Source: a virus
IMG/VR virus record: IMGVR_UViG_3300013128_000009
Coordinates: 1 to 41,256 of that record
Strand: one strand, 5' to 3'
DNA length: 41,256 nt
Shown: positions 15,711-40,927 of the stretch, piece by piece
Layout: every line of letters begins with the position of its first letter
Numbering within the stretch: the first letter of the stretch is position 1
The notes under the pieces: model-generated
What the model was told of the DNA's origin: nothing
What the model saw: only the letters and a program-made list of their open reading frames with translations
Databases searched by the model: none
Position numbers and translations under genes: made by a program

Positions 15711-15737
15711 TCAGCGCGCTCGAATCGCGCTACGATG

Positions 15738-15768
15738 CGGGCGAGCGGGCACCTAGCTCGCTCGCCCG
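15738..15768 (+). terminator. Probable intrinsic terminator
   Basis: CGGGCGAGCG (15738-15747) pairs perfectly with CGCTCGCCCG (15759-15768), with an 11-base loop that can close further by wobble pairs. The stem is followed at once by TTTCGTTT, the most T-rich stretch seen after any hairpin here. A -10-like TACGAT lies just before it at 15731-15736, so an attenuator for the next gene is an alternative. Confidence 0.65.
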
Positions 15769-15789
15769 TTTCGTTTCGGAGGATCTCGA

Positions 15790-24635: not shown

Positions 24636-24647
24636 CCCTGTTCGCCT

Positions 24648-24685
24648 GAGCCTCCGAGCGCGCTATGCTCGCGCTCGGAGGTCTC
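24648..24685 (+). promoter_or_regulatory. Hairpin masking the ribosome site of the chaperone gene
   Basis: CCTCCGAGCGCG (24651-24662) pairs perfectly with CGCGCTCGGAGG (24670-24681); the stem extends as GAG/CTC (24648-24650 with 24683-24685) around one bulged base and so ends at ATG 24686. The 3' arm holds the only Shine-Dalgarno, GGAGG (24677-24681). Long messages from the tube gene would therefore hide it. The loop carries a -10-like TATGCT. Confidence 0.7.
24664..24669 (+). promoter_or_regulatory. -10-like TATGCT in hairpin loop
   Basis: GCTATGCT lies in the loop of the hairpin before 24686. A transcript begun about seven bases further would lack the 5' arm and leave GGAGG free. No convincing -35 is present, only TTCGCC at 24641, so this is a weak call supported mainly by its position. 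Confidence 0.3.
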
Positions 24686-25159
24686 ATGGCGACGAAAGAC
24701 GAACTCGATCTGGACGAACTCGAAGCGCTCACGAGCGGCGAGCGCAAGAAGGAAGATGGCGGCAGCGAAGAGCTATCGCCGATCCACACGTTCGAGATCG
24801 ACGTGAAGGACTACCGAGGCAAGCGGTGGCAGGGGAAGTTCGTCTTCCACGTGCCCGCACTCGGGGCACAGGTGAAGATCGCGCGCCTCAAGGCCGCGCT
24901 ACTCCCTGCGGGTGCGGCGAGCGACGCGAACGGCGCGCTCATCGCGGAGATGATGGCTTACACCCAGGTGTGCTTCACGGAGAAGCCGTCGTGGTGGAAG
25001 CCCGAGCGCTTCTACGATCCCCTGCCGCTCATCACTGCGTACAAGGAGGCGCGGATGTACGAGCGCAGGTTTCTCGGAGCAGAAGTGGCCGACGATCGCG
25101 ACGACGCGAGCGCGGATGGAGTCGGATCCAATCCTTCTGATCAAGGCGATGTGGGCTGA
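24686..25159 (+). CDS. Tail assembly chaperone, first ORF (gpG-like)
   Basis: Encodes 157 residues from ATG 24686, preferred over the upstream ATG 24665 because GGAGG sits four bases before it. The protein is acidic at its start and then shows a compact alpha/beta segment (FEIDVKDYRGKRWQGKFVFH, then a helix with AQVKIARLKAALLP). Genes of this size between tube and tape measure are chaperones that coat the tape measure during tail assembly. It overlaps the next ORF by 44 bases in another frame, as gpG and gpT do. The function follows from order and size, not from a named motif. Confidence 0.7.
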   Translation: MATKDELDLDELEALTSGERKKEDGGSEELSPIHTFEIDVKDYRGKRWQGKFVFHVPALGAQVKIARLKAALLPAGAASDANGALIAEMMAYTQVCFTEKPSWWKPERFYDPLPLITAYKEARMYERRFLGAEVADDRDDASADGVGSNPSDQGDVG

Positions 25160-25454
25160 CACGTTCAAGCTCCCGCTCAACGACGAGCGGCTCATGTCGC
25201 TCACTGCGCGTGAAGCGCTCGAACACGTCTTCGCGATCGAAGCGCTCTCGCAGCGAAGGCTCGACGCGATCAAGCGCTCGCGCACCGGGCGCGACGCTTC
25301 TGATCGTGAAGCACCTCCGCAGTCGGATGTGCATCGCGACGAGAGTGCGCGGAAGCTCGCCGATACCCCGCACCTCACGGGCGATCCAGAATGGGATGCA
25401 GTCGAACTAGCGGAGACGGATCCGAGCAAGCCACCTCTCACGATGAAGGTCTGA
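25116..25454 (+). CDS. Tail assembly chaperone, second ORF (gpT-like)
   Basis: Up to 112 residues in the +1/-2 frame relative to the first chaperone ORF, overlapping it by 44 bases and ending just before the tape measure start. No ribosome site precedes ATG 25116, so it may be made mostly as a frameshift fusion, as with gpGT; the offset would need +1 or -2 slippage. Mu uses -2. I saw no obvious slippery heptamer in the overlap, so coupled re-initiation is the alternative. Residues 8-50 look helical; the rest is polar. Confidence 0.6.
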   Translation: MESDPILLIKAMWADTFKLPLNDERLMSLTAREALEHVFAIEALSQRRLDAIKRSRTGRDASDREAPPQSDVHRDESARKLADTPHLTGDPEWDAVELAETDPSKPPLTMKV

Positions 25455-37822: not shown

Positions 37823-40471
37823 ATGCGCATCGTTCGCTGGCACCCGCAAGAGCGCGTAGACAAGCCCGACCTCGACGCGATGAGCTACCTCAAGCTCGGC
37901 GAGTTCCGCCGCACGCTGCGCGCGCTCGTTCAGGGCGAGGATCAGTTCGTCATCACGGGCTTCGCGGTCGAGCCGAGTGCGGTGCCCGACACGTTCATCC
38001 GTGTGCGCTTGCAGCCGCCAGGCACGGAGCGCGCGAGCGCGCTCGGCAGCGAACTCACGAGCGCGGGTCTCGACAAGGGGCAGTTGATCGGCGACCGCGA
38101 CTCGTCGTTCTTCCACGAGGGCGCGGCGCAGCAGACCTACGACTTCGCGATCCAGCCGATCGGTTCGTACACGGTCGAGATGAGCTTCGTGTACGCGGAT
38201 GCCGTGAACGACAACCGCGCGTTCTGGAACCCCGGCGGCGCGACCGAGTTCATCTCGAACGTGCAGACGCGCACGACGCCGACGTGGGTCTTGCAGGTCG
38301 TCGCAGGTGCCCCGAGCGGAGGCGTGTGGATCCCGCTCGCGACGGTCGCGTGGAACGGCGCGATCGTGAACGCGGGCGACATCACCGACCTGCGCGCGTT
38401 CACGTGGGAAGGCACCGCGCCGTTCCAGCAAGCCACGCAGACGGGCTCGGGTGGTGTCGAGGACTTCCCACGCGCCACGACGCGCGGCGCGCAGGCGACG
38501 GGCCTGCATCGGCTGCGGAAGTTCGCGCGCGGCGTGCTGCGCCAGATCCAAGACATCAAGGGGCAGGACGACGCGGGTCAGTTCAACTGGTTCTCGCGCA
38601 TCTTCTCGCCGTTCGATCCTGCGGATGCGCTCGGCGCGCAGACGAAGACGATGCGCACGATCGACACCGTGACGTACACGGTGGGCGACGGCGTGAGCAC
38701 GTTCGGTGACTTCAACGGAGCGACGGGTCTCGACGCGTGCCTCGCGCACATCGACTCGTTCACTGCGTTGCAGATGCCCGAGCGTGTCGAGATCGTGCTG
38801 CATGGTGGCGTGACGCAGGTGCTCTCGGGCTCGAAGATCCTCTCGGGCGGCGGAGGCAACCCGCTCACGATCGTCATCCGTGCGGGCGAGACGCTCGCCC
38901 AAGCGAACGTGGGCACGCTCGGCCGTCCGCGCATCGACATCGACGGGGCCACAGTCCCCGTCTCGTCGTTCGCGCTCGCGGTCTCCGGCAGCGGCCTGGG
39001 CTCGCTCGTGTTGCAAGACCTCGACGTGTCGTGGTCGGGCACGACGGCGAGCGGACGCGGCATGTTCGCGACGACGGGCGGCTTCATCGCGGAGCGCTGC
39101 ACGCTCTCGATGGGCTCGCCCGCAGTGGACGCGGGCTTCGTGATCTCGTCGCGGAACGCGCGCATCTCCGCGGTGCGTCGCTGCACGATCGTCGGTCGCG
39201 TGCAGATGTACAACGACGACGCGAGCACGCTGGTGCCCGTCGAGGAGCACGGTGGCGTGATCGAGCAGTCGATCCTCACCGCTGCGCAGATCGTGCTGCG
39301 CGCCGACGCGCCCGGTGTGCCTGGTATCGACGCGGTGAACGGCTTCGCGATCCGCGACTGCTCGATCACGGGGCGCACGACCGCGATCTACACGGGCTCG
39401 ATCGCGCTCATCGACGCGCGGTGCGCGCGCAAGCTCCACGTCGAGCGCAACACGATCACGTACGGCATCAACGAGAACGCGATCGACATCCGAACGTACA
39501 ACGGAGTCTCGCCGTTCGACGTGCACGTGCGCGGCAACCGCTTCGTCGGCGGATTGACGAACGGCGTAGCGCACGTGTCCGGTGCAGGCGGCTCCGGTGC
39601 TGCGGGCACGGGATGGGCGTTCTCGGCGAGCGATGCGCGCAACGTCCACGTCGAGGGCAACCGCTACGCGATCTCCGACTCGGTGGACGCGGGCGGCGTG
39701 CGCTTCTTCGACGTGGAGCAGTACTCGATCGATGACGAGTCGCACATCTTCTGCGGGCACGGTGCGGCAGCCGCGGCGCAGTACGAGGGCATCCTGCTCT
39801 CGGGCACCGTGCAGGGGACCATCTTCGGCTCGATCGATCGCGTGCAGTTCTCCGAGTGGCTCGGCGGCATGACGCGCGTGCGCTGCATCAACCTCGACTT
39901 CTGCTCGCGCCTCTCGATCGAGGGGAGCACGCTCCTCGGGCAAGAGTCGGGCTTCGGCCCCGCGCTCGTGCCTGCGGCGGGCTTCGGCGCGATGCGCGTC
40001 GATCAGATTCAGGATGTCCGCGTGAGCACGAGCCTGTTCGAGAAGTGGGCGAACGCGACCGCGAACTCGCGCACGATCTTCATCACCGACACGTTGCAGA
40101 CGTTCAAGGTCACAGGGTGCAGCTTCCTCGACTGCGGCGGCTTCTCGATCATCCGCACCGCGGGCACGCCGATCGCGGTGATGATCGACGACTGCGCGCA
40201 CTACACGAGCGACGGCGCGAACGAAGACTTCGCAGACCTGCGAGGCTGCATCGCGCCTCGCGTGACGAACTGCAAGGGCATCGTCGTCGCGGGCGGTCCG
40301 AACACGTTCGTCTCGTTCAACAACGCGAACTTCCTCTTCATGGGGAACCAAGCACCGAACGGCGACATCGACATGAACGGTGCTGCGGTCGCGGGTCGCG
40401 GCTTCCAGCCCGACGACACCGCGCAGGGCTGGGATCAGGATCTCAACCTCGTGAACGCGTACGTGCCCTGA
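37823..40471 (+). CDS. Large tail fibre/spike with parallel beta-helix
   Basis: Encodes 882 residues, with GAGGAG before ATG 37823. The N-terminal 240 residues probably attach to the baseplate (beta-rich, FAIQPIGSYTVEMSFVY). From about residue 290 onwards the chain has short turns typical of a right-handed parallel beta-helix: VLQDLDVSWSGT, AIRDCSITGRTTAIYTG, LHVERNTITYG, VHVRGNRFVGG, NVHVEGNRYAISD. Such folds are found in phage spikes, often with polysaccharide lyase or hydrolase activity, but no catalytic residues can be assigned by eye. It is the best candidate for host-surface binding. A nested hairpin covers its stop codon. Confidence 0.78.
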   Translation: MRIVRWHPQERVDKPDLDAMSYLKLGEFRRTLRALVQGEDQFVITGFAVEPSAVPDTFIRVRLQPPGTERASALGSELTSAGLDKGQLIGDRDSSFFHEGAAQQTYDFAIQPIGSYTVEMSFVYADAVNDNRAFWNPGGATEFISNVQTRTTPTWVLQVVAGAPSGGVWIPLATVAWNGAIVNAGDITDLRAFTWEGTAPFQQATQTGSGGVEDFPRATTRGAQATGLHRLRKFARGVLRQIQDIKGQDDAGQFNWFSRIFSPFDPADALGAQTKTMRTIDTVTYTVGDGVSTFGDFNGATGLDACLAHIDSFTALQMPERVEIVLHGGVTQVLSGSKILSGGGGNPLTIVIRAGETLAQANVGTLGRPRIDIDGATVPVSSFALAVSGSGLGSLVLQDLDVSWSGTTASGRGMFATTGGFIAERCTLSMGSPAVDAGFVISSRNARISAVRRCTIVGRVQMYNDDASTLVPVEEHGGVIEQSILTAAQIVLRADAPGVPGIDAVNGFAIRDCSITGRTTAIYTGSIALIDARCARKLHVERNTITYGINENAIDIRTYNGVSPFDVHVRGNRFVGGLTNGVAHVSGAGGSGAAGTGWAFSASDARNVHVEGNRYAISDSVDAGGVRFFDVEQYSIDDESHIFCGHGAAAAAQYEGILLSGTVQGTIFGSIDRVQFSEWLGGMTRVRCINLDFCSRLSIEGSTLLGQESGFGPALVPAAGFGAMRVDQIQDVRVSTSLFEKWANATANSRTIFITDTLQTFKVTGCSFLDCGGFSIIRTAGTPIAVMIDDCAHYTSDGANEDFADLRGCIAPRVTNCKGIVVAGGPNTFVSFNNANFLFMGNQAPNGDIDMNGAAVAGRGFQPDDTAQGWDQDLNLVNAYVP

Positions 40472-40517
40472 TCACCCGCGATCGGCTACGCTTCAAGAGC
40501 GGGAGCCGAGGTGATCA
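40469..40517 (+). promoter_or_regulatory. Nested hairpin masking the holin ribosome site
   Basis: TGATCACC (40469-40476), which contains the fibre stop codon, pairs perfectly with GGTGATCA (40510-40517), which contains most of the Shine-Dalgarno and the A of the start ATG. Inside, CGGCT (40483-40487) pairs with AGCCG (40504-40508) and CGCT (40489-40492) with AGCG (40498-40501). A read-through message would hide the start of the holin-like gene. Confidence 0.7.
40487..40492 (+). promoter_or_regulatory. -10-like TACGCT within hairpin
   Basis: GCTACGCT lies within the 5' half of the hairpin before the holin-like gene. A message started about seven bases later would lack the 5' arms, freeing GAGGTGATC. 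No -35 is present, and the sequence is short, so the call rests on its position. Confidence 0.3.
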
Positions 40518-40927
40518 TGGATATGGTGAACTGGCAGGCGTTGATCTCGAACCCCACGATCGTGATCATCGCGTTCGTGATCGGCACGGGCGGCGAGGTC
40601 GCGAAGCGTGCGGTGAACGCGAAGGCCGGAGACGCGGGCTGGAAGGGCGTGTACTACGTCACGATGCCCGCGCATCCGATCCTCGTCGGCGCGCTCATCG
40701 GACTGATTCCGTGGCTCCCGATCCCCGAGGCTCTCACGAAGGAGGGCTACGAGTTCGCGGGTCGCCTCGGCACGGGTGTGCTCTCCGGCGTGCTCTGCAA
40801 GATCGGCTACGACGTGCTCGTCTCGACGGCGAAGCGGCTGCTCGGGCAAGGAGCCGCGCGCGTGGCAGCGGTCGCTGCGTCCACGCCTCCGGCCTCTTCG
40901 ACGAAGGACGAGGAAGAGAAGGCGTAA
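40517..40927 (+). CDS. Holin-like membrane protein
   Basis: Encodes 136 residues from ATG 40517, chosen because GAGGTGATC, a long match to the 16S 3' end, lies directly before it; GTG 40511 and ATG 40523 are in-frame alternatives and might act as a dual start. Two hydrophobic segments (PTIVIIAFVIGTGG and ILVGALIGLIPWLPI) and a weaker third (LGTGVLSGVLCKIGYDVLV) are followed by a charged C-terminus (STKDEEEKA), like phage holins. It is placed after all virion genes. An endolysin is not visible in the window. Confidence 0.65.
   Translation: MDMVNWQALISNPTIVIIAFVIGTGGEVAKRAVNAKAGDAGWKGVYYVTMPAHPILVGALIGLIPWLPIPEALTKEGYEFAGRLGTGVLSGVLCKIGYDVLVSTAKRLLGQGAARVAAVAASTPPASSTKDEEEKA

Follow-up and report, generated by a model that had tools for sequence, protein, structure and literature searches.

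An RNA hairpin at the start of a small membrane protein gene buries the Shine-Dalgarno sequence (SD) of that gene and encloses a -10-like box, and by computation the same combination of fold, masking and box recurs, with unrelated arms, at a second gene of this phage and in two other phages. We read the element, with a probability of roughly 70%, as a late promoter that lies within an RNA hairpin masking the ribosome site. The window, by which we mean the whole stretch of DNA analysed, is a phage record of 41,256 bases with 66% GC, and its major head protein is of the SPO1 type (phrog_752), with Bacillus phages as the best annotated relatives at 33% identity. A nucleotide search of phage records returned no relative, and neither a protein search with the small gene product nor a scan of genome contigs returned one.

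The plus strand of the window carries likely late genes with short gaps between them, and positions 40472-40516 form one of the few gaps. Upstream lies an 882-aa open reading frame (37823-40471, plus strand; from the ORF list and gene calls), fibre-like by position only, for which PHROGs and Pfam gave no match. Downstream, the small gene (40517-40927, plus strand) encodes 136 aa, has orthologs elsewhere and offers two in-frame ATG codons at 40517 and 40523, two codons apart (MDM), the second being the position at which the orthologs in G013, L003 and L004 begin. The preliminary description had taken its product for a holin and had drawn three nested stems running from the upstream stop codon to the SD and start. 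The product is at most a putative holin: the label derives from hydropathy only (three hydrophobic stretches, with a structure model of low confidence), and searches of PHROGs and Pfam matched no known holin family. The stems, on the other hand, are borne out by the fold and by the cost of opening the SD.

Indeed, the segment 40465-40522 folds at -29.5 kcal/mol (z -4.06, with 0 of 200 shuffles as good), and 40469-40517 forms three nested stems of 8, 6 and 5 bp, all on the plus strand. The outer stem pairs a 5' blocking arm, TGATCACC (40469-40476), with GGTGATCA (40510-40517); the middle stem pairs TCGGCT (40482-40487) with AGCCGA (40504-40509); and the inner stem joins 40489-40493 to 40497-40501, with a single G-T pair among its five. 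The stop codon of the 882-aa frame, TGA at 40469-40471, sits at the base of the hairpin, where the outer 5' arm begins with it; the middle and outer 3' arms together (40504-40517) hold the SD, GAGGTGAT (40508-40515), and the first base of the ATG start (40517-40519). The stem is followed by TGGATATGG in place of the T run of an intrinsic terminator, none of which is listed on the plus strand, and the hairpin had no Rfam match at gathering score. Among all 60-base windows of the sequence its stability ranks only 281 of 10300, with the hairpin at 24637 near the top, so in such GC-rich sequence stability alone is weak evidence. The unusual aspect of the hairpin is the masking of the SD. Opening the SD of the small gene costs 13.2 kcal/mol, which ranks second among 55 predicted starts, behind a twin element at 24686 (23.0 kcal/mol, rank 1 of 55) and ahead of a third-ranked start at 10.8 kcal/mol. 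Of 1135 candidates with an SD and a start, 11 have a perfect stem, 8 bp or longer, that masks the SD.

Inside the hairpin lies the -10-like box GCTACGCT (40485-40492, plus strand), whose hexamer TACGCT (40487-40492) spans the 5' arms of the middle and inner stems. The octamer GCTAYGCT occurs in both window hairpins, at 40485 and 24662, and members of the same family stand between genes at 24662 and 15729 and in the related phages G004 and G005. Of the 26 GCTAYGMT sites counted in two related phages and in the window with its extension, 10 are intergenic against 6.2% expected (P = 1.8e-6), a figure somewhat flattered because the elements that the motif supports also served to define it. Nothing beyond a weak T bias at -21 emerged when a -35 box was sought at nine intergenic sites, and a sigma-70 scan likewise found no -35. 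Downstream of a third GCTAYGMT box in the window, GCTACGAT at 15729, come a strong hairpin, TTTCGTTT and an SD (15711-15789); that hairpin leaves the SD unmasked, and a similar box-then-hairpin layout is seen at 53903 in G004. A separate motif, CATCGGGTANNNT or AATCGGGTA, stands shortly before many gene starts in G004, G005 and G013 (L104-L112, L116-L120), for example at 24953 and 35859 in G004 and at 68349 in G005, and looks like another promoter class.

The twin element precedes the tail assembly chaperone gene (ATG at 24686; family phrog_25000), where folds and scans give a perfect 12-bp stem, CCTCCGAGCGCG/CGCGCTCGGAGG, with the loop CTATGCT (24650-24682, plus strand). It masks the SD of the gene, and its box is GCTATGCT. 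In G004 and G005 the chaperone gene keeps a GCTAYGMT box with a terminator-like hairpin ahead of it, which replaces the masking stem and suggests that shutting out read-through may be the shared aim. The chaperone frame overlaps the next one (25149-25454), as is expected from the programmed frameshift usual for such genes, and no slippery site was identified there. Terminator-like hairpins also appear past the window end in the near-identical contig G001 (L012), where near-identical copies of the form GCCCGCC...GGCGGGCTTTCGCGTT occupy several gaps between short genes, some of them followed by a common GATGAGCTTTCTCTACTGG-like sequence.

Orthologs of the small gene were compared in seven other phages, near-identical copies being left out. 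A scan for perfect SD-masking stems that was blind to promoters found 13 in the genomes searched, and 4 of the 13 hold GCTAYGMT: the two window elements and the starts of the small-gene orthologs in G004 and G005. A comparison set of other loci, 1.1 Mb in all, yielded 24 masking stems, of which only 2 hold any TANNNT at all. The G004 and G005 hairpins, both of which hold GCTACGAT, occupy the same site as that of the window, downstream of the preceding gene's stop codon. Between stop and start G004 reads TCCTTTGCGA...GGCTACGAT...TCGCAAAGGA, its SD being part of the 3' arm, and G005 has nested stems in which GAGACCTCCGA is followed by an inner stem around TACGAT and then by TCGGAGGTCTC. The arms in both phages are unrelated to those of the window, no arm sequence is common to the three hairpins, and the best partner of each SD arm is its own 5' arm; thus the pairing is kept and the sequence is not. 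The design is absent from the orthologs in G013, G002 (L003), G033 (L004), G010 and L126, two of which are the nearest to the window at the protein level, so that only some members of the phage group carry it. L126 was considered as a further case and rejected: TATTCT lies upstream but is not enclosed by the hairpin, and no stem of the SD-masking design contains the SD. There are only three independent cases at the small gene, G001 and L122 being near-identical copies; neither hairpin is changed in G001, which is hence uninformative. The internal -10 box, a start near 40499 and the kinship with a design at 24648, all proposed in the preliminary description, gain their support mainly from G004 and G005. 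Its expectation of stem conservation among relatives holds for the two phages that keep the design with unrelated arms and fails for the five orthologs that have no stem.

If the box is active, messages reading through from the upstream late genes would carry both arms, so that the SD of the small gene would be buried and little protein made. A polymerase starting at the internal box GCTACGCT would give a message beginning near 40498-40501 (plus strand), a region that we infer from the position of the box, 6-9 bases downstream of it. This short message would have a leader of 16-19 bases from which the outer and middle 5' arms are missing, leaving the SD far more accessible; across the elements, starts 6-9 bases past the box would give leaders of 8-19 bases with the blocking arm gone. 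The predicted SD-opening cost falls between long and short message from 13.8 to 5.8-8.0 kcal/mol at the small gene, from 22.2 to 0.4-1.7 at the chaperone gene, from 12.8 to 4.2 in G004 and from 17.6 to 8.6 in G005, a drop of about 6-22 kcal/mol across the elements. For the window gene, the mean probability of an unpaired SD is 0.002 on the long message and about 0.40-0.55 on the short one. Local pairing worth several kcal/mol still covers the SD of the short message in the window and in G005, in the latter with the message's own coding sequence. Expression of the small gene would in this way be tied to its own promoter and uncoupled from read-through, with the same design used at 24686; promoter activity, late timing and an effect on lysis are what we infer.

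SD-opening costs also bear on translational coupling, in which ribosomes ending the upstream gene at 40469-40471 would melt the outer stem and open the SD, so linking the small gene to its upstream neighbour. Since the outer 5' arm begins with the stop codon, a terminating ribosome would indeed cover that arm, which speaks for the idea. Covering it, however, still leaves an opening cost of 8-11 kcal/mol as against 13, and in the twin, G004 and G005 the stops lie upstream of the arm (three of four elements outside the stem), where covering leaves the SD closed. Coupling also leaves the shared -10 box unexplained; it is the weaker account beside the internal promoter, and we think it improbable.

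Less probable again is that the inverted repeat is a DNA operator, with a regulator binding around the -10 box and the masking of the SD as a by-product. The dyad does bracket a promoter-like box in all four elements, but its 3' arm always includes the SD, and since the arms of the two elements in one phage differ, as do those of different phages, no operator sequence is shared. We give equally little credence to a chance hairpin in GC-rich intergenic DNA that happens to contain a TANNNT. The modest stability rank and the five orthologs lacking the stem would fit chance; masking stems, however, occur at about 1% of starts and yet at three of eight orthologs (binomial estimate about 5e-5), and all three orthologs with a masking stem have the same box. 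Least likely of all is a structure for processing or 5' stabilisation of the mRNA with no role in initiation, for although the GCTAYGMT sites at 15729 and at 53903 in G004 precede hairpins that do not mask the SD, the SD lies within the stem here and an internal start would remove the structure.

A promoter nested in an SD-masking hairpin has precedents in T4, where long messages of e, soc and gene 49 fold the SD into a helix and late promoters by the ribosome site give well-translated messages without the 5' arm (PMC3014915). The switch at gene e, which encodes lysozyme, was reported to have a 100-fold effect (PMC3014915; PMC2988022), and the e structure is patchy among T4 relatives, some of which have it and some of which do not (PMC3014915). 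At I-TevI and segB of T4 and at mobE of Aeh1, a late promoter lies inside or beside the 5' arm of a hairpin that masks the ribosome-binding site (PMC2988022). As at gene e, the predicted fold in the window would hold the SD in a helix on read-through messages, and occurrence among relatives is patchy. In all four elements the -10-like box is sited where a putative start would give a message that lacks the 5' arm; as at I-TevI, segB and mobE, a promoter-like box lies within the masking hairpin. Unlike those mobile endonuclease genes, the genes here are phage late genes, and in contrast to e, soc and gene 49 they encode a small membrane protein and a tail assembly chaperone. The T4-type late -10 box TATAAATA, read in T4 with gp55, is absent from the window elements, which have GCTACGCT and GCTATGCT, of the GCTAYGMT family, in GC-rich phages with an SPO1-type capsid protein. 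At the start of the lambda S holin gene, RNA structure and two nearby ATG codons occur together, and the structure tunes the choice of start with no internal promoter. The small gene resembles lambda S in having RNA structure and two nearby ATG codons (40517 and 40523) and differs from it in the promoter-like box inside the hairpin and in the three orthologs that begin at the second position. As promoter type, genes and phage lineage all differ, the likenesses point to convergent use of the mechanism and not to membership of the T4 family.

To conclude, the observation is real, and the element is probably a timing switch of a kind known from phages, in a variant reached by convergence. On balance the chances are even that GC-rich phages with an SPO1-type capsid protein evolved, independently of T4, a reusable promoter-in-SD-hairpin module that is placed at different late genes, with its arms rebuilt in each phage and a terminator doing the same job in relatives. 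If so, a T4-type timing device would have arisen separately in an unrelated group and would serve more than lysis. It would also supply a simple rule for finding genes whose expression from read-through messages a phage has to prevent (look for an SD-masking stem that encloses a promoter box) and would point to the late promoter box of uncultured phages.
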